Positions 53,749 to 64,000 of a stretch of DNA of 64,000 nucleotides are shown piece after piece; the stretch's first letter is position 1, and each line of letters starts with the position of its first letter. This DNA is from Lachnospiraceae bacterium (lineage in GTDB: Bacteria > Bacillota > Clostridia > Lachnospirales > Lachnospiraceae), in NCBI GenBank assembly GCA_900168235.1, contig FUZG01000002.1, positions 62,001-126,000 on the forward strand, written 5' to 3'. The notes beneath the pieces were generated by a model. That model did no database searches, was not told where the DNA came from, and saw nothing but the letters and a program-made list of their open reading frames with translations. A program made the position numbers and the translations under genes.

Positions 53749-55509
53749 TTGAAAAAGGTACTTTCGCTGTTAAAGAGCTATAGAAAAGAAGCGATACTGT
53801 CTCCGACGTTTAAATTGCTGGAGTCGTTAATGGATCTGCTGACACCTCTGGTCGTGGCAGCGATCATTAATAAAGGCATAGTGCATGCGGACTTTTCGTA
53901 TGTGACCGGATGCTTTTTATTCCTGATATTCCTTGCGGTGCTGGGACTTATGTTTTCCTTTACAGCGCAGTGGTTTGCGGCAAAAGCCAGTGTGGGGGCG
54001 GCAACGGACCTGCGGCAGGAGCTTTTTGACCATATACAGGATCTGTCATGCGAAAAGCTTGATACTATCGGTACGGATACGCTGATAACCCGAATGACCA
54101 GCGACATAAATCAGGTTCAGAACGGTATAAATATGACGCTACGTCTCCTGCTCAGGAGCCCGTTCATCGTATTTGGCGCAATGATCATGGCATTTACCAT
54201 AGATTTCAGATGTGCTCTGATATTTGCCCTTGCGATACCTGTTCTGAGCGTGGTTGTTTACGGCATCATGATCATCAGTATTCCGCGATTTTCAAAGGTA
54301 CAGCAGTCGCTGGATAAACTGCTCGGAACCACCAGGGAAAACCTCACGGGTGTGAGAGTTGTAAGGGCTTTTTGCAAGGAATCTGATGCAGTCGCTGAGT
54401 TTGACAGGCAGAGTGAAGAGCTCACCCGTATGAACGTATTTGTGGGAAGACTTTCCGCAGTCATGAATCCTGCGACCTACGCACTTATAAATATCGCAAC
54501 TATCATGCTCATAAGAGAGGGCGCTGTCCGCGTGGAACTCGGCGCTATCGCACAGGGTGATCTGGTCGCGCTCTACAATTACATGGCGCAGATAATCGTG
54601 GAACTTATAAAGCTCGCATCGCTTATCATCACAATAAATAAGGCACTTGCCTGCGCGAAGCGTATAGAAACCGTATTTGATGTGAAGCCCGGGATGTCCT
54701 ATCCCGACAAAAAATTGTCTGAGACAGCGGATGATACAGAGAGTGATTCCGAAGTGGAATTTCGTCACGTTTCTTTTTCCTACAGCGGATCAGAGGAAAA
54801 TGCCGTATCGGACATAAATTTCTCAGTGAAAAAAGGTCAGACTGTGGGAATCATCGGCGGTACGGGAAGCGGAAAATCTACGATCGTGAACCTGATACCG
54901 AGGTTTTACGATGCTACGGAAGGTGAGGTTTTAGTTTCAGGACGGGATGTAAAGACTTTCCCGGAGGGAGATATCATAAGCCGTGTCGGAATGGTCCCGC
55001 AGAAAGCAGTTTTATTCGAAGGAACCATCAGAGATAACCTCAAGTGGGGAAATGAAAACGCGACTGATGAGGATATGTGGAAAGCGCTCGAGATCGCTCA
55101 GGGGCGTGAAGTTGCAGAGGGCAAGGATAAGAAGCTTGACGCGGAAGTGCACCAGGGCGGACGGAATTTCTCAGGCGGTCAGAAGCAGAGACTTACTATC
55201 GCAAGAGCGCTTGTCAGAAAACCTGAGATATTGATATTGGATGACTCTGCCAGTGCCCTTGATTTTGCGACAGATCTGAAGCTTAGACAGGCGATAGCAG
55301 GGCTTGATGGTGACATGACAGTATTTATCGTGTCTCAGAGGGCGTCCAGCGTCAGGGCAGCGGATCTGATACTGGTTCTCGATGACGGAGTGGTCGTGGG
55401 ACAGGGTACTCATGATGAACTCTTAGCTTCCTGTGAAGTTTATCAGGAAATCTACTATTCACAGGCTCCGGAAGAAAAGAATAAAAGCGGAAAGGAGGTG
55501 CTTGCATGA
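53749..55509 (+). CDS. ABC exporter half-transporter with degenerate site
   Basis: A 586-residue type IV ABC exporter: six membrane helices (~15-300) then an ATPase with Walker A GGTGSGKST (~370) and signature FSGGQKQRL. After Walker B the usual catalytic Glu is Asp (LILDDSASALD), as in TM287-like subunits that form the degenerate site of heterodimers. Starts at TTG 53749 after AGGAG. Overlaps the next gene by 4 bp. With the next protein it should form a heterodimeric exporter; substrate not shown. Confidence 0.88.
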   Translation: MKKVLSLLKSYRKEAILSPTFKLLESLMDLLTPLVVAAIINKGIVHADFSYVTGCFLFLIFLAVLGLMFSFTAQWFAAKASVGAATDLRQELFDHIQDLSCEKLDTIGTDTLITRMTSDINQVQNGINMTLRLLLRSPFIVFGAMIMAFTIDFRCALIFALAIPVLSVVVYGIMIISIPRFSKVQQSLDKLLGTTRENLTGVRVVRAFCKESDAVAEFDRQSEELTRMNVFVGRLSAVMNPATYALINIATIMLIREGAVRVELGAIAQGDLVALYNYMAQIIVELIKLASLIITINKALACAKRIETVFDVKPGMSYPDKKLSETADDTESDSEVEFRHVSFSYSGSEENAVSDINFSVKKGQTVGIIGGTGSGKSTIVNLIPRFYDATEGEVLVSGRDVKTFPEGDIISRVGMVPQKAVLFEGTIRDNLKWGNENATDEDMWKALEIAQGREVAEGKDKKLDAEVHQGGRNFSGGQKQRLTIARALVRKPEILILDDSASALDFATDLKLRQAIAGLDGDMTVFIVSQRASSVRAADLILVLDDGVVVGQGTHDELLASCEVYQEIYYSQAPEEKNKSGKEVLA

Positions 55510-57260
55510 GTAAGAACAGCGAAAAAAAGGTTAGCAGTAAAGATACGCTGATAAAAGTCATGCGCTTTATCGGACGGTACAAAATTCTGCTCGCGCTTAG
55601 CATCATCCTTGCAGGAGTGTCAGTAGTGCTCCAGCTTTATGTACCGATCCTTTTCGGACAGGCGATAGACCTTGTGATCGAAAAGGGAAAGGTAGATCTT
55701 GACGGAGTAGCGTTATATGCGGGAAAGATACTTGTGCTGGTACTCATTTCTGCCCTTGCCACATGGATCATGAATCTCATTAATAACCGTCTTGCATATA
55801 GGACAGTTCAGGATATCCGCGCAAAGGCCATCAGACGGATACAGGTACTTCCTTTAAGCTATCTTGATTCTCACAGCAATGGAGACACGGTCCAGAGAGT
55901 GATAGCGGATGTGGATCAGTTGTCGGATGGACTGCTTCTCGGATTTACACAGCTTTTTTCGGGAATAGTCACGATCTTTGTGACACTGATATTTATGTTT
56001 TCAAAAAATGTGCTCATCACGGGAATGGTGATAGTGATGACCCCTGTGAGCTTCCTTGTAGCGAAGTTTATCGCGTCGAGATCATTTCAGATGTTTAGGA
56101 AACAGACAGAAACCAGAGGATCTCAGACTGCTCTTATAAACGAGATGATCGGAAATGAAAAAGTCGTAAAGGCTTTTGGCTATGAGGAGCGGGCATCAGA
56201 GCGTTTCCGCGAGGTAAATGAAGAGCTTCGTGAGTATTCTGAGAAAGCTGTATTTTTCAGCTCACTCACAAATCCATCCACTCGTGCAGTAAATAACGTG
56301 ATATACGCGCTTGTTGCGCTGGTAGGTGCAAACAGGATACTCAGTGGTGTGCTGACGGTTGGTGATCTCACAGTGCTGTTGTCCTATGCGAACCAGTACA
56401 TGAAACCATTTAATGACATCAGTTCAGTAGTTACAGAGCTTCAAAATGCCCTTGCCTGTGCGGCACGCGTTTTTGAACTGATAGAGGCAGAGCCCCAGAG
56501 CAGAGAGGGCGATGCAGAGCTTCAGGATGTGAGCGGAAGAGTGGACATTGAGCACGTGGATTTTTCATATGTACAGGATAAACCGCTTATCAGGGACTTT
56601 AATTTCCATGCTGAGCCCGGAATGAAGATCGCGATCGTGGGTCCGACGGGATGCGGAAAGACAACGCTCATAAATCTGCTCATGAGATTTTATGATGTGA
56701 AGAGCGGATCCATAAAGATAGACGGGCAGGACATAAATGATGTATCCCGTGCATCCTTAAGACAAAATTTTGGAATGGTACTGCAGGAAACATGGATAAA
56801 GAACGGTACTGTGCGTGAAAATATCGCATTTGGTAAGCCTGATGCCACAGACGAGGAGATAATCAGGGCGGCAAAGGAAGCCCACAGCTGGGAATTTATC
56901 CGACGTATGCCGCGTAAGCTTGACACGGTTCTTACGGATGAGAGCCTGAGCCAGGGGCAGAAGCAGCTTCTCTGTATCACGAGGGTCATGCTCTGTGATC
57001 CGTCCATGCTGATACTTGATGAGGCTACATCGAGCATCGATACCAGAACCGAAGCTCTGATCCAGAAAGCATTTAATAAGCTCATGAAGGGCAGGACAAG
57101 CTTCATCGTAGCCCATAGACTCAGCACCATCCGCGATGCGGACAGTATCCTTGTAATGAAAGACGGATCCATCATCGAGCAGGGTGATCATGAAACACTG
57201 CTCGCAAAAAATGGATTCTATGCAGAGTTGTACAACTCACAGTTTAAGCTCAGTGCATGA
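55506..57260 (+). CDS. ABC exporter half-transporter with canonical catalytic site
   Basis: A 584-residue partner of the preceding protein. Walker A GPTGCGKTT (~380), Walker B LILDEATSSID with the catalytic Glu intact, and a degenerate signature (LSQGQKQLL instead of LSGGQ). This is the complementary pattern expected for a TM287/288-like heterodimer in which only one of two ATP sites turns over. Start ATG overlaps the previous stop (ATGA). A bidirectional terminator follows. Confidence 0.88.
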   Translation: MSKNSEKKVSSKDTLIKVMRFIGRYKILLALSIILAGVSVVLQLYVPILFGQAIDLVIEKGKVDLDGVALYAGKILVLVLISALATWIMNLINNRLAYRTVQDIRAKAIRRIQVLPLSYLDSHSNGDTVQRVIADVDQLSDGLLLGFTQLFSGIVTIFVTLIFMFSKNVLITGMVIVMTPVSFLVAKFIASRSFQMFRKQTETRGSQTALINEMIGNEKVVKAFGYEERASERFREVNEELREYSEKAVFFSSLTNPSTRAVNNVIYALVALVGANRILSGVLTVGDLTVLLSYANQYMKPFNDISSVVTELQNALACAARVFELIEAEPQSREGDAELQDVSGRVDIEHVDFSYVQDKPLIRDFNFHAEPGMKIAIVGPTGCGKTTLINLLMRFYDVKSGSIKIDGQDINDVSRASLRQNFGMVLQETWIKNGTVRENIAFGKPDATDEEIIRAAKEAHSWEFIRRMPRKLDTVLTDESLSQGQKQLLCITRVMLCDPSMLILDEATSSIDTRTEALIQKAFNKLMKGRTSFIVAHRLSTIRDADSILVMKDGSIIEQGDHETLLAKNGFYAELYNSQFKLSA

Positions 57261-57299
57261 AAAAACGGACGGCTGATCAATGTCAGCTGTCCGTTTTTT
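57260..57299. terminator. Bidirectional terminator overlapping sngC stop
   Basis: AAAAACGGACGGCTGA (57261-57276) pairs with TCAGCTGTCCGTTTTT (57283-57298), one wobble. The stop codon of the minus-strand helicase gene (57283-57285) lies inside the right arm. Confidence 0.85.
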
Positions 57300-59622
57300 C
57301 TATCCGCCCGCCGGGGACAAATTTTTTCCATTCCCTCACCCGGCTGAGCATACCGGTTATATCAAGTACACCGCAGGCGAAACCCTTGCGGACAAGGTCG
57401 CGGGGCAGGTACTCGTCGTATTTTTCGAAAACAGGATTCTCTGTCGGGTACAGGAGATCCATGGGGTCAAGCGGCATGTCGGCAGCTGTTGTCACGATAT
57501 CGAAAAATTCATTTTGGGATGCAGACATCGTAAACTGGATGTAGTATGGCCTTGATGCGTCAAAACCTTTGATAGCAAGTAGTTTCCCACAGCGAAGCTT
57601 CAGGAATCGTTCAAGTGCGAGGAATGAATAAGTTCCAAGCCACGGGAAAAGAGCCCACATATTTCCGCCAAGGGAAATAAGCGGATTCTCAAGAAGACCT
57701 GAGGATCTGGCTGCATTTCTGGCGCTTCCGAGACGGGCAGCCGCATTCTGCATGAGGTACGGGAAAAAGCTGTCTTCTTCAAGAACTTTCTTCATCCTTT
57801 CAAGGATGTGAGTATTGATATCCCCGGGACATTCTCCGAAGTAAGCGGGTATATTTCCCTTAACAAGCTCGCAGTAAACAGCGTGGCGCTTATGGTCTAC
57901 TTCTGTTACGACCCACACATGCCCTGCGATGGCGATCTTTTCTCCTGCGGGAGGCGGTGCAACTAGCGTTCCCAGCTCCTGGGATTCGCATCGAACGGTA
58001 TATTCTTCATTTTCCTGAAAAACAGCATAAAACTTAAAATTATTTGTGATGCGTTCTCCTGCAATACCTACGATAAGTCCTCCGCGCTCGGTCCACTGGA
58101 TATGGTCGGTTTCTATGAGGTGACGGAGCAGAACCCTGAAATCATCCTGACTCACTCTGTAAAAGACACTGAGTGACAGCACTTTTGATGCAAGGACTGC
58201 GGGAGTCATCTCACCGCCGGATGCGAGAGTGCTCATAGTCTGATGGTAGAGCAGGCTATAGGGCAGGCGGTCGAGACGAGGCGGTTCCACCCATTTTTCC
58301 TCAAGGTAGACCTGTACGAGTGCGATTCCCTGTATCAGCTTCCACGGGATGCACTCCGGGAGCATGGCTCTTGGTTCCGGCGGATCTTCGCGCATGACAA
58401 ACCACATTTCAGGGGGCAGGTCTCTCCGTCCTGTGCGTCCCATCCGCTGAAGGAATGATGACACCGTGAAAGGTGCATCTATCTGAAAAGCCCGTTCGAG
58501 GCGTCCGATATCTATACCGAGCTCAAGAGTAGAAGTGGTCACAGTTGTAAGGAACGTATCCTCATCCTTCATCAGCTCCTCAGCAGACTGTCTATATGAA
58601 GCCGACAGATTTCCATGGTGTATAAGGAATCTGTCAGGCTCGTGCTTTGCTTCGCAGTATTGTCTTAAGGTAGTGGTGACAGCTTCTGCATCCTCTCTTG
58701 AATTACAGAAAACAAGGCACTTTTTACCTCGTGTATGCTCAAAAATATATCCGAAACCGGGATCGGCTGCGAGAGGAGCTTTATCGGTCGCTTCTTCCAA
58801 AAGCGGAAGTGGATCAGGAGTCATGTCGTCGGAAGTGTGAACAGTTGGAATAACATCCACATCTATGACATTTTTTTGATCATCATTGCTTTCACGCCGG
58901 TCAGGGTCTGTTGACTGAGGACCTGATACAAAAAAATGTTCCATTGAAAGACGCCATTTCTGTCCTTTTGCTTCTATCTTTGGGATGACAGTACCTTTTC
59001 CTGTACCGGATGCAAGGAAACGCCCTGTCATTTCAGGATCGCCGATAGTTGCGGAAAGTCCGATACGACGGGGATTTACACCTGCCATTCGTCCGAGACG
59101 CTCTATGAGACAGATAGTCTGACCGCCGCGGTCTCCGCGCATCAGGGAATGAACTTCGTCTATGACTATGAAACGGAGATCTCCGAAAATCTTTGGTATG
59201 AGTGCATGTTTATGGAGCATCAGCGCTTCGAGCGACTCGGGTGTGATCTGGAGTATGCCGGAGGGCTTTTTCAGCATCTTGCTCTTATGAGATGCAGCCA
59301 CATCGCCGTGCCAATGCCATACAGGTATCTCAGCTTCTTCACAGAGTTCATTGAGACGTCCGAACTGGTCATTTATGAGGGCTTTCAGGGGACCAATGTA
59401 GATCGCACCGACAGATGAGGGCGGATCTTCTGAAAACAGAGTGAGGATCGGGAAGAATGCGGCTTCTGTCTTACCCGATGCGGTTGAAGCGGAGAGAAGT
59501 ACATTTTCATCTGTATTAAAAATGGCATCACCCGCAGCAACCTGTATCGCTCTGAGATTTTCCCATTCATGTTCATATATGAAATCCTGTATAAAAGGAG
59601 CATATCGATTGAAAATATTCAT
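57283..59622 (-). CDS. sngC: Lhr-like DEAD/DEAH helicase, SngC-type (Shango system)
   Basis: A 779-residue superfamily 2 helicase. Motifs: Walker A SASTASGKTEA (~45-52), motif Ia IGPLKALINDQ, DEVH box VIDEVHSLMRGDRGG (~155), motif III GLSATIGDP (~190), motif V region TTSTLELGIDIG, motif VI FLQRMGRTGRR. The C-terminal half is Lhr-like and lacks nuclease motifs. It is the last gene of a three-gene group with a BrxD-like ATPase and a TerB_N/TerB_C protein. This trio matches the Shango anti-phage system (SngA TerB-type, SngB ATPase, SngC helicase). Without a search I cannot exclude a related but distinct cassette. Confidence 0.8.
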   Translation of the reverse strand: MNIFNRYAPFIQDFIYEHEWENLRAIQVAAGDAIFNTDENVLLSASTASGKTEAAFFPILTLFSEDPPSSVGAIYIGPLKALINDQFGRLNELCEEAEIPVWHWHGDVAASHKSKMLKKPSGILQITPESLEALMLHKHALIPKIFGDLRFIVIDEVHSLMRGDRGGQTICLIERLGRMAGVNPRRIGLSATIGDPEMTGRFLASGTGKGTVIPKIEAKGQKWRLSMEHFFVSGPQSTDPDRRESNDDQKNVIDVDVIPTVHTSDDMTPDPLPLLEEATDKAPLAADPGFGYIFEHTRGKKCLVFCNSREDAEAVTTTLRQYCEAKHEPDRFLIHHGNLSASYRQSAEELMKDEDTFLTTVTTSTLELGIDIGRLERAFQIDAPFTVSSFLQRMGRTGRRDLPPEMWFVMREDPPEPRAMLPECIPWKLIQGIALVQVYLEEKWVEPPRLDRLPYSLLYHQTMSTLASGGEMTPAVLASKVLSLSVFYRVSQDDFRVLLRHLIETDHIQWTERGGLIVGIAGERITNNFKFYAVFQENEEYTVRCESQELGTLVAPPPAGEKIAIAGHVWVVTEVDHKRHAVYCELVKGNIPAYFGECPGDINTHILERMKKVLEEDSFFPYLMQNAAARLGSARNAARSSGLLENPLISLGGNMWALFPWLGTYSFLALERFLKLRCGKLLAIKGFDASRPYYIQFTMSASQNEFFDIVTTAADMPLDPMDLLYPTENPVFEKYDEYLPRDLVRKGFACGVLDITGMLSRVREWKKFVPGGRIEKTDS

Positions 59623-59643
59623 GTGCCCTCCGTGATCTGTGCT

Positions 59644-60984
59644 TTAGATCGTGAACTCTGCGAAGTTATCATCCGGGCGGGATGCAGTGTCGCTTCCCGG
59701 TTCTTCGCTCTTTGCGAAGCTGAAATTTTCTGACCCCAATATGGTTTCTATATCCTGATCCGGGTGCTGGAAGAGAATGTCCAGAAGTTCTATAAAGTCA
59801 CGTATTACTTCTCTCGGAGTGATCTTGGAATCAGCTCCTATCCGTCCAAACTCGATCTTTATAAAGGCAGCAAGTGCTTCGTCTGTAATGCTATTTTCGT
59901 ATCCGTAGAGGTCTGCATGGATATCTGCGAGCTTTCCTATGAGAACGAGCATTTCTTCCGCAGTCAGTGCTTCAAGCCTGATGACCGGAGCCAGCATGTC
60001 ACGGGCTCCTTCTACGGAGAATTTACCTTCCTGCAGGCGTGAGCGCAGTGCTTCGTAGCTGTAGACACCACGTCTGCGGTCCTCGATACACTGGGGCGTA
60101 CCGCACATGATGATTCCGAGATACTGCGCTTTTCCCTGCAGAGTATCATTGTACATGGTAAGGATCTTTTCGTAATTGTACTGGCGGGTGATAGAGTTCG
60201 GAATCTTGTAGATATTCACGAGCTCATCGATCATAATCATCATTCCGGTGTAGCCTGCTTTTTTCAAAAACCAGGCAAAGAGCTTCAGGTATTCATACCA
60301 GTCGTCATCGGTGATGATGATAGTGACGCCGAGCTCCTGACGTGCCTCAGTTTTAGTGGCATATTCGCCGCGGAACCACTTGATGACCTTTCCCTTGGTC
60401 TCTTCGTCACCTGTGATATGAGACTGATAATACATGGTGAGCAGACGGGCAAAGTCAAAACCATGTACCAGCTCATTCATGGAGTGAATGACCTGCATGA
60501 TCTTTTTCTCGACAGCTGCGGAAAAAGAAGGATCATCCATGGAAAGACCTGTTTCCTGCATAGTCTCATTCTGAACAGCGCTGATCCAGCGGTCCAGTAT
60601 GAGAGTAAGGGCACCGCCCTCGGGACGTGTCTTTGTTGACATGTTTCTCAGAAGCTCGCGGTAGGTAGCGAGTCCCTGGCCTCGGGTTCCCTGGAGTCTC
60701 CGCTCAGGTGACAGGTCGGCATCGACCACGACGAACCCTCTGTCCATCACATAATTACGGATGGTCTGCAGGAGAAAGCTCTTACCGCTTCCGTATCTGC
60801 CTGAGATAAAACGGAAAGATGCTCCGCCGTCGCTTATCACGTCCACATCATGCAGGAGCGCGCGGATCTCATCCTTTCTGCCGACTGTTACATAGGGGAG
60901 TCCGATACGCGGTACAACTCCGCCCTTAAGTGAATTTATGAGAGTACCTGCAATGCGCTTCGGTACTTTTTTTCTAACATCCAT
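59644..60984 (-). CDS. sngB: BrxD-like P-loop ATPase (DUF2791), SngB-type
   Basis: A 446-residue AAA-like ATPase of the BREX ATP-binding domain family. Features: MDVRKKVPKRIAGTLINSLKGGVVPRIGLPYVTVGR at the N-terminus, Walker A GRYGSGKS (62-69), VVDADLSPERRLQGTRGQGLATYREL, Walker B MIMIDELVNIYK (~248-258), then GIIMCGTPQCIEDRRRG and SRL sensor-like helices. A BREX locus would also need BrxB, BrxC, PglX and PglZ; none is present. Co-directional with the TerB-type and helicase genes at 17-21 bp spacing, so one operon. Confidence 0.8.
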   Translation of the reverse strand: MDVRKKVPKRIAGTLINSLKGGVVPRIGLPYVTVGRKDEIRALLHDVDVISDGGASFRFISGRYGSGKSFLLQTIRNYVMDRGFVVVDADLSPERRLQGTRGQGLATYRELLRNMSTKTRPEGGALTLILDRWISAVQNETMQETGLSMDDPSFSAAVEKKIMQVIHSMNELVHGFDFARLLTMYYQSHITGDEETKGKVIKWFRGEYATKTEARQELGVTIIITDDDWYEYLKLFAWFLKKAGYTGMMIMIDELVNIYKIPNSITRQYNYEKILTMYNDTLQGKAQYLGIIMCGTPQCIEDRRRGVYSYEALRSRLQEGKFSVEGARDMLAPVIRLEALTAEEMLVLIGKLADIHADLYGYENSITDEALAAFIKIEFGRIGADSKITPREVIRDFIELLDILFQHPDQDIETILGSENFSFAKSEEPGSDTASRPDDNFAEFTI

Positions 60985-61001
60985 CTATGAATGATCCTCC
61001 G

Positions 61002-62660
61002 TTACTTCTCCGGGATAATGTCTTTCAGGTCGGGGATATAGTCCTCGATAAGCTCAGGCTCATCCTCATTAAATTCGATCACTGTGTCACCGATAATATC
61101 CATCATCTGATCATTGATGCTGTCACAGAGCATATTTATCATCAGGTGATGTGACTGCACGTAGTCCTTCCAGGGCTCTCCGTAGAGCAGAGCATGAAGG
61201 ACAAAAATTTCATCAGGTGACAGAAATGAATCTATGTTATGTAAATCAAACTCCCCCGAGAACTCTTGGTTATGTAAACTACTCTCGGGTTCACCTCTAT
61301 CTGATAAAATATCGATATTTTCAGAAGTATTAGAAATATCACCGGATATATCGGGAACAATCTTATCGATATTATGTAAATCTGAATCCACGAGGTTTTC
61401 GACATTATGTAAATCAGATTCGACAGATACATTTTCAGAATGAGTTTCTTCCTCAACGATAAGCGAGTCACGTGTTTCTGCGGCGTCACGTCTTATGGAG
61501 TCGAGCATTGAAAGGTCGATCTCTATACGCGGCTTCGCAGCTTCCTCACGTTCTTTCAGGAATCTGTCCACGATCCAGCTGATCTCTTCTGCAAAGATAT
61601 CGTTCATGAGCCTGCGTTTGATGCTCTTTACGAGTCCGGTTTTGTCTCTTAGGACACGGTCTGTTTCATGGCAGATATCGCCGAGGATACGGCTTGGTTC
61701 TGCAAATCTTCCGTATGCTTCACGGGACCATGCGCCGTCACGGCAGTGATAACTGCATATGGGGCTTATTTCGTATGCATAGTCCGTATATTTTTTATGG
61801 TCATAAAAAACTGCATTTTGAAAGATCTTTACGGAAAAAACACCGCGCCGTCCAAAGCAGTATTCAAAGAGAGTATCACGGCTGAGGCGCTTCATCCCTG
61901 CGGAAAGCTCGCGGATCACGCGAACTATGGTGCTTTTCGTGAGCTCAGGATCCTTTTTATACAGCGTCGATTTTTTTATGTCATAGGATGACATGACGAG
62001 GAGCGCATCAAACAGGGCATCATCAGGTACTGAAGGATCGCACTCAGGGTCCTCTGCCTCGGAAAAAGCCTGCATCAGTACGGAAAGGGCTGAGTCCATA
62101 TCCACGCTGAAATATTCGGATGCGAGATTATGGTCGAGACCGTAGTAGATGATATAATCCCGTATCCAGCGCCGCAGATGATCCTTTAGGGTCACATCCA
62201 GATGCCCGTATAAGCGGTCTATTTTTAGGAGTATTTCGAAGCCCTCCTGAGGTGTTACGCCGATGCCGTTAAGGATCTCGTAGATATAAACATAGAGGAA
62301 CGAGAGCTGTGGAGACTGATCCGGAAAGCCATTCCGAAAACGGGTGCGGAACGAGAAATAGCCCCGAAGCTCGTTGTCTTTCATCGTTTTATATGTAGGA
62401 AAATATCTGCGGAATACACCGGTGAACTCGTAATCATCCGTGTAATCAGCGGCGAACTGTCCCTGTTTATAGAAGTACCAGCTCTCCGGTTTAGGGAAAG
62501 TGTGGACCTCACTTGCGATGGCTTTCATCCACTGCAGTTTGTCAGGCAGGGGTGTTTTTGGTGCGGCGGGGCGGTCCTTCCTGAGGGGAAGTGCTTCATC
62601 ATGATAACCGTCCGTGAAGCGCACATCTATTGAATTGTCAGAGAAAAATCCATTACCCAT
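61002..62660 (-). CDS. sngA: TerB_N/TerB_C protein, SngA-type
   Basis: A 552-residue protein, first gene of the cassette. Residues ~40-270 carry TerB_N features (ESWYFYKQGQFAADYTDDYEFTGVFRRYFPTY, LRGYFSFRTRFRNG); residues ~480-550 resemble TerB_C (FLSPDEIFVLHALLYGEPWKDYV). Between, from ~405 to 475, lies an acidic linker containing four copies of an S/FDLHN-type motif (SDLHNVENL, SDLHNIDKI, SSLHNQEF, FDLHNIDSF). TerB-type domains bind metal and occur in predicted stress and defence complexes. Promoter not clearly visible; no transposase, integrase or repeats flank the cassette. Confidence 0.75.
   Translation of the reverse strand: MGNGFFSDNSIDVRFTDGYHDEALPLRKDRPAAPKTPLPDKLQWMKAIASEVHTFPKPESWYFYKQGQFAADYTDDYEFTGVFRRYFPTYKTMKDNELRGYFSFRTRFRNGFPDQSPQLSFLYVYIYEILNGIGVTPQEGFEILLKIDRLYGHLDVTLKDHLRRWIRDYIIYYGLDHNLASEYFSVDMDSALSVLMQAFSEAEDPECDPSVPDDALFDALLVMSSYDIKKSTLYKKDPELTKSTIVRVIRELSAGMKRLSRDTLFEYCFGRRGVFSVKIFQNAVFYDHKKYTDYAYEISPICSYHCRDGAWSREAYGRFAEPSRILGDICHETDRVLRDKTGLVKSIKRRLMNDIFAEEISWIVDRFLKEREEAAKPRIEIDLSMLDSIRRDAAETRDSLIVEEETHSENVSVESDLHNVENLVDSDLHNIDKIVPDISGDISNTSENIDILSDRGEPESSLHNQEFSGEFDLHNIDSFLSPDEIFVLHALLYGEPWKDYVQSHHLMINMLCDSINDQMMDIIGDTVIEFNEDEPELIEDYIPDLKDIIPEK
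61238..61415 (-). repeat. Four short repeats in the sngA linker
   Basis: TTATGTAAATC-type units (plus strand) at 61238-61248, 61270-61279, 61372-61382 and 61405-61415. On the coding strand they encode the DLHN motif. The third-position match is nearly complete, which points to recent duplication or strong sequence constraint. Confidence 0.6.

Positions 62661-64000
<1,340 letters not shown>

Follow-up and report, generated by a model that had tools for sequence, protein, structure and literature searches.

The 64,000-nt stretch of DNA analyzed here (the window), from contig FUZG01000002.1 of a Lachnospiraceae bacterium, almost certainly carries at positions 57283-62660 a complete and intact operon of the Shango anti-phage defence system, sngA-sngB-sngC, which by its sequence should be functional; this confidence concerns the identity of the system and not its mechanism. 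Shango is already known, and the window copy is another genome's instance of it, ordinary as such. An earlier note on this DNA had proposed the system from three tightly spaced open reading frames (ORFs) on the minus strand, and all three are present where it placed them, with gaps of 17 nt between sngA and sngB and 21 nt between sngB and sngC. Against the PADLOC-DB profiles, SngC matched its Shango model at 4.9e-277 (919 bits), with BrxHI next at 1.6e-117 (392 bits), SngB matched its own at 1.2e-195 (649 bits), with BrxD next at 5.9e-50 (169 bits), and SngA matched its own at 1.2e-73, the only PADLOC match of this protein. The Shango models thus beat every other PADLOC family by a wide margin, and it is these models, rather than those of another three-gene system, that are closest to the three proteins. 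The domains named in the earlier note were checked with HMMER in place of HHpred, and all scored over the Pfam cut-offs: TerB_N (1.5e-21) and TerB_C (2.9e-18) in SngA, BrxC_BrxD (9.6e-174) in SngB, and DEAD (4.1e-26) together with Helicase_C (4e-17) in SngC. The features that mark a Shango locus, a SngA with TerB domains, an AAA+ SngB and a superfamily 2 helicase SngC encoded by three adjacent genes on one strand, were all found, and the whole genome holds a single TerB_N match and a single BrxC/BrxD match, the operon accounting for both. Our call combines the PADLOC protein models with gene adjacency, the PADLOC system rule forming no part of it.

The PADLOC families that come second to the Shango models are BrxD for SngB and BrxHI for SngC, and the same pairing of ATPase and helicase is reported for type 2 bacteriophage exclusion (BREX, or Pgl) in the accessible text of PMC12839542. 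The operon might on these grounds be taken for a remnant or divergent type 2 BREX locus, that is, a BrxD-BrxHI dyad that lacks the methyltransferase and PglZ, a reading that we find scarcely credible. SngB reaches 171.6 bits against the NCBI BrxD equivalog cut-off of 350, the third protein carries TerB_N and TerB_C (as do 40 of the 40 SngA proteins chosen for scanning), and PglZ (PF08665) has no match in the window genome, which is 99.93% complete, with 2 of 14 control genomes positive. A BREX remnant was therefore rejected as the identity of the operon, on the PADLOC margins, the lack of PglZ and the missed BrxD cut-off. That no BREX partners accompany the cassette, as the earlier note had it, holds genome-wide for PglZ, and SngB is the sole protein of BrxC/BrxD type in the genome; no BrxX/PglX methyltransferase or PglW was found among the six left-flank and four right-flank genes scanned, no genome-wide search for them having been made. 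Shared ancestry of the SngB-SngC and BrxD-BrxHI dyads is likely.

The intact Walker motifs of the ATPase and the DEVH motif of the helicase were found as claimed. SngB has the Walker A motif GRYGSGKS at amino acid (aa) 62 and the Walker B motif MIMIDE at aa 249, kept in 87 and 88, respectively, of the 88 rows compared, window included; a search for relatives of SngB returned weak P-loop matches only. SngC has SGKTEA (aa 49), DEVH (155), LSAT (189) and QRMGRTGR (392). Its Walker A, SAT and motif VI are kept in all 70 ORFs of more than 600 aa, again with the window included, and its motif II, which is DEVH in the window and DEIH in most relatives, is one or the other in 76 of 77 related ORFs (one partial). 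The Lhr fold was recovered over the whole length of SngC. In the NCBI equivalog test the best model for SngC was that of the ligase-associated DEXH helicase (186.6 bits against a cut-off of 850), and SngC likewise fell far under the cut-offs of three further helicase models; which of the NCBI models is Lhr proper is our own assumption. The ratio of nonsynonymous to synonymous substitution rates (dN/dS, Nei-Gojobori method) against the sister genome G014 is 0.046 for SngB, 0.051 for SngC and 0.092 for SngA, values that show constraint on all three genes and nothing special to Shango. SngA shows the lowest conservation among the three proteins, and the window SngA is without the YjbR-like N-terminal domain that occurs in 48 of 79 related SngA ORFs, so that one might suspect a decaying or inactive copy. 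We consider this very improbable: the catalytic motifs are present, dN/dS is low in all three genes, TerB_N and TerB_C both occur in the window SngA, and the three sisters also lack the YjbR-like domain yet keep the genes.

The AlphaFold2 model of SngA has a predicted local distance difference test score (pLDDT) of 82.9 and a predicted template modeling (TM) score of 0.62. Its pLDDT falls below 50 at model residues 404-475 (numbered without the start Met), and aa 405-476 are probably a disordered linker, which overlaps the repeats D1/D2. None of 20000 shuffles reached the four LHN motifs of this linker, in a test made after the motif had been noticed, and among 80 SngA proteins at least two copies occur only in the window and two of its three sisters, the motif being rare elsewhere. 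The count of 48 of 79 for the YjbR-like domain comes from a model for which 23 of these sequences themselves were the input, and it includes partial ORFs; the match is present in 45 of 68 closed SngA ORFs of at least 450 aa. By Pfam the calls are weak, with 11 of 40 SngA proteins at an E value of 0.01 or better, and among seven proteins scanned singly only that of locus L071 passed the YjbR cut-off, barely (30.2 against 30.1 bits). A YjbR-TerB fusion was rejected as a novelty, such a fusion being mentioned in the accessible part of PMC7641849. A hidden nuclease in SngA was also considered and set aside, the protein having no Foldseek match at an E value of 0.001 or better and no relative by sequence in the PDB at E values up to 10, an absence of matches that is not proof.

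The way in which these proteins might work together can be proposed tentatively. SngA would detect, bind or mark invading DNA, its TerB_C part being modelled much like a winged helix and many of its relatives carrying a YjbR-like domain. SngB, an AAA+ ATPase akin to BrxD, would then load or activate SngC on that DNA, and SngC, as an Lhr/BrxHI-like helicase, would move along and unwind it, thereby blocking its replication or expression or exposing it to host nucleases. A proposal in print gives BrxD the role of loading or activating BrxHI (PMC12839542, in whose accessible text the words Shango and TerB are absent). We infer this sequence of recognition by SngA, loading by SngB and unwinding by SngC as a whole, and hold it with well under even confidence.

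Several points weigh against the reading of the window operon as a working defence system of this kind. The literature searched holds no phage-defence test of the window copy. Shango of Pseudomonas aeruginosa PA14, like that of Escherichia coli, lowers the plating of several phages and not of all, and the PA14 effects are modest (accessible text of PMC10250203). The mechanism is listed as unknown in the available part of PMC12926258, and a mechanism paper may exist in the subscription journals, most of which lay outside our search. The SngC model has a mean pLDDT of 67.9, with TM-scores to Lhr of only 0.47-0.48. Whole SngA returned no significant Foldseek match, the structural match of its TerB_C part to a winged helix has a Z value that may mean only a common arrangement, and, with 26-39% identity between the window SngA and the 36 relatives aligned from beyond its clade, the role of this protein could have drifted. 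The signs of purifying selection are not peculiar to Shango, because dN/dS is similarly low in the flanking genes and synonymous divergence from the sisters approaches saturation (dS 1.65-3.3 against G014, and undefined for some pairs). The split loci described below show, moreover, that the three genes need not form one operon. Some of these facts also suit an alternative in which the system is correctly named and its mechanism is another, with SngA and SngB sensing infection and provoking abortive infection rather than a direct attack on phage DNA: the PA14 effects on plating are modest, the mechanism is listed as unknown, and no nuclease domain was recognised in SngA, SngB or SngC by PADLOC, Pfam or structure comparisons. 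No toxin-like domain was recognised either, however, and we rate abortive infection as unlikely, if by no means negligible.

At some loci the genes are separated. In two sister genomes, G014 (loci L028/L133) and G031 (L029/L134), sngA and sngB are adjacent and are followed by 6.26 and 6.28 kb, respectively, of metabolic genes before sngC. These intervening genes include those for a NIF3-like protein, an esterase, an AraC protein and a major facilitator superfamily protein (five G014 genes were domain-scanned). sngC is open over 774 aa in G014 and 778 aa in G031, the two being 88% identical, and its orientation differs, minus in L133 and plus in L134, with an inverted match that spans almost exactly the gene. 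Between these genomes dN/dS is 0.016 for sngC, 0.027 for sngB and 0.147 for sngA, and the split genes are thus kept. A repeat-based cause of the inversion was considered, and no repeats were found at both gene borders. In both genomes an element of 14-15 nt adjoins sngC and recurs within the gene (1482-1496 and 1728-1742 on L133; 1946-1959 and 4171-4184 on L134), and is too short to decide the matter. In G009, sngA and sngB stand beside the same gene cluster and the contig ends before the expected position of sngC, which was not found in this incomplete genome, nor in the assembly behind L055. The genome of L071 (G072) has its only SngB match beside a 318-aa mini-SngA composed of YjbR and TerB_C without TerB_N (L071 7044-9338), and its only SngC match, an open ORF of 743 aa, on another contig (L180 7251-9482); this case is the weaker one, the genome being a bin that could be mixed.

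Since sngC lies some 6.3 kb away and in opposite orientations in the two sisters, yet is under stronger purifying selection than sngA (dN/dS 0.016 against 0.147), and in one bin stands on another contig than sngB with its mini-SngA, one possibility that we put forward with reserve is that Shango consists of two separable units. A fast-evolving and domain-variable specificity unit, SngA or SngA-SngB, would be served by a conserved SngC acting in trans, with no need for co-transcription, and SngB-SngC would be the helicase-loader dyad of BrxD-BrxHI joined to another recognition partner. The arrangements suggest that the helicase gene sngC can move away from sngA-sngB.

Gene arrangements were compared at the best 80 of 130 SngB relatives, which a scan of one genome per species with patterns taken from the window SngB had found among 146 candidate stretches. 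At 60 of these 80 loci the order is sngA-sngB-sngC on one strand with gaps of up to 600 nt, nine have a larger A-B gap and seven a larger B-C gap, and at two sngA follows sngC on the opposite strand; no sngA ORF was found at two loci and no sngC ORF at three (two of which end early), the classes overlapping. The two rearranged copies of sngA are at L083 3888-5777 and L098 11752-13506. Ten proteins from the gaps of six loci were scanned, and they include an EcoRI-type enzyme with two methyltransferases (L079 3783-6810), a DUF3990 protein with a type IIG enzyme (L080 6245-6757 and 10551-13568) and a type IIG-like enzyme with a methyltransferase (L084 3938-7967). A PD-(D/E)XK protein (L063 6903-7985), a RhuM/Fic protein (L094 3690-4619) and an ATPase (L102 6521-7972) are, like the DUF3990 protein, PADLOC candidates only. 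The L053/L054 gap holds metabolic genes, which speaks against nested defence genes being a general rule.

Shango is patchily distributed around the window genome. Of 61 genomes from the genus and order, 13 have a SngA match; for SngB the figure is 9 of the 48 genomes in the genus, or 4 when only the 22 good ones are considered. The window genome is included in the SngA count and in the count of 9. Three sisters among the kept SngB relatives are 89-90% identical to the window protein and the rest 70-76%; most come from Clostridia, the others including strains of Limosilactobacillus, the complete chromosome of Treponema vincentii and bins whose titles name Bacteroidales and Chloroflexi. An 88-row SngB tree, rooted at its midpoint and with G012 and G033 on long branches, joins the window to its three sisters in a single clade (100/100); in it the eight same-genus rows require four label changes, at least three of them forced by well-supported branches. 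The pattern suggests that there was more than one transfer, either into the genus or out of it. Of 72,556 plasmid records, 691 carry SngB matches, all below 60% identity and some perhaps of BrxD type; the best, in Paenibacillus, is flanked by a TerB_N protein and a DEAD/DEAH helicase. In a set of 50,697 phage records there is no match to SngB, and SngC has four, one of which covers most of the query. A SngC relative stands at the very start of the record of Klebsiella phage Kp4866-6 (OK490421.1, 125-2299), with 30% identity over 98% of the query. Taken together, the distribution suggests that Shango comes and goes between species.

These results also bear on whether the three proteins might be a Ter-type stress or DNA-repair complex with the anti-phage effect as a by-product. 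TerB-family domains are named for tellurite resistance, SngC resembles Lhr, which is a repair helicase, and sngC is kept apart from sngAB in the sisters. The patchy presence of SngB and the signs of transfer, its relatives on plasmids (with the reservations on identity and type just given) and the nesting with restriction systems fit defence genes instead, and Shango has been tested against phages elsewhere (accessible text of PMC10250203); we regard a stress or repair complex as improbable.

The coordinates of the operon and its flanks are collected in Table 1.

Table 1. The Shango operon and adjoining features, in window coordinates.
Feature	Coordinates	Strand	Description
sngA	61002..62660	minus	552 aa; TerB_N aa 34-200, middle part, TerB_C aa 367-546
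sngB	59644..60984	minus	446 aa; BrxC/BrxD-family AAA+ ATPase, Walker A and B present
sngC	57283..59622	minus	779 aa; Lhr-like superfamily 2 helicase, helicase motifs present
Linker-coding part of sngA	61233..61448	minus	aa 405-476, probably disordered, four LHN motifs
18-bp inverted repeat with A and T runs	57259..57300	no strand	possible two-way terminator
sngA-eno divergent stretch, 252 bp	62661..62912	no strand	presumed promoters of both genes
Two-gene ATP-binding cassette (ABC) exporter (flank)	53749..57260	plus	Pfam; pair 82-86% identical in sisters
eno (enolase, flank)	62913..64000	plus	ATG at 62913; gene cut by window end

Both flanks named in the earlier note, eno and the ABC exporter, were confirmed in the window. 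sngC and the exporter pair are convergent, tail to tail with 22 nt between them, and the inverted repeat that lies there is 94% complementary and contains the sngC stop codon. This repeat may be a two-way terminator common to sngC and the exporter, which is a reading and not a proof; a pattern scan of 57000-63200 gave five terminator-like sites against 4.7 expected from shuffles, that is, no enrichment. On the other side eno diverges from sngA and leaves the window at its right end, and the pattern scan listed no sigma-70-like site between the two genes. The claim that no mobile element is visible stands for the ten flanking genes scanned with Pfam (six on the left and four beyond eno), none of which resembles a mobile-element gene.

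The proposal that the operon sits in a core-gene neighbourhood was not borne out for eno. An Enolase_C match is present in all 14 control genomes, in 25 of 48 same-genus genomes and in 14 of the 22 good ones; 8 of these 22 are without it, and many of the 48 are incomplete drafts. We therefore rejected eno as a core anchor, 23 of the 48 genomes having no match: eno is accessory in the genus of the window. Enolase loss has been reported in Butyrivibrio (accessible text of PMC6912079), and the patchy presence of eno fits that report, the window genus not being established as Butyrivibrio. eno and Shango are on different contigs in G009, G010, G012 and G031 and about 3.3 Mb apart in G033, and the Enolase_C match of G014 is a fragment only.

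The sisters share the rest of the neighbourhood. The genes beyond eno in the window genome are those found left of sngA in G014, namely an ODP/flavodoxin protein (89% identity), ORFs of 260, 365 and 137 aa (94, 79 and 95%) and an ORF that we read as ssb-like (99%). In both G014 and G031, sngC is near the same ABC exporter (82-86% identity for the pair); also close by are the NlpA-type importer of three genes and the membrane protein of 534 aa that the window has to the left of its exporter. Shango thus occupies one shared interval in this clade, with the ODP/flavodoxin-to-ssb-like block on one side and the ABC exporter block on the other, and since it does so in sisters that lack eno there, eno is an extra gene. 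A comparison meant to prove an empty site gave none: where SngB has no match, the nearest homologues of the exporter (in G062, G065, G066, G015 and G004; 57-71% identity) have other neighbours as far as their contigs reach, in a search that scored 28 of its candidates per genome in nearly all genomes.

Shango is among the systems detected in rumen genomes, according to the available part of a survey (PMC13356809). The split loci, the mini-SngA and the SngA proteins with and without a YjbR-like domain provide natural material for the study of how Shango works, and such variants let one ask which subunit sets the target and whether the helicase acts in trans. The split and nested loci are side results of specialist interest rather than a headline.

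Among known systems, Hachiman resembles the window operon in using a superfamily 2 helicase for defence, and its HamB was in the Foldseek list of SngC (8vxa, 1.7e-7), but nothing equivalent to the HamA nuclease was recognised in the Shango operon. The accessible text of PMC12278908 places HamB close to the Ski2 helicases and groups SngC with BrxHI, DruE and DpdJ in a clade apart, whereas another paper classes BrxHI as Ski2-like (PMC12839542, likewise in part). Compared with the Lhr helicase of Mycobacterium smegmatis (5v9x), SngC is also an Lhr-like superfamily 2 helicase, but it falls below the NCBI cut-offs of the Lhr-like models and is encoded in an operon with SngA and SngB. Type 2 BREX likewise encodes an AAA+ ATPase, BrxD, together with an Lhr-like superfamily 2 helicase, BrxHI (PMC12839542); it differs in that the window genome is without a PglZ match, that SngB is under the BrxD cut-off, and that the partner of the window dyad is a TerB_N/TerB_C protein. 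Shango itself, as described in the accessible text of PMC10250203 for P. aeruginosa (PA14_RS11735-RS11745) and E. coli, has the same three families in the same order of TerB protein, ATPase and helicase in one operon, and the window copy differs from these in belonging to a Lachnospiraceae branch, in standing beside an ABC exporter and eno, and in a SngA linker with four LHN motifs.

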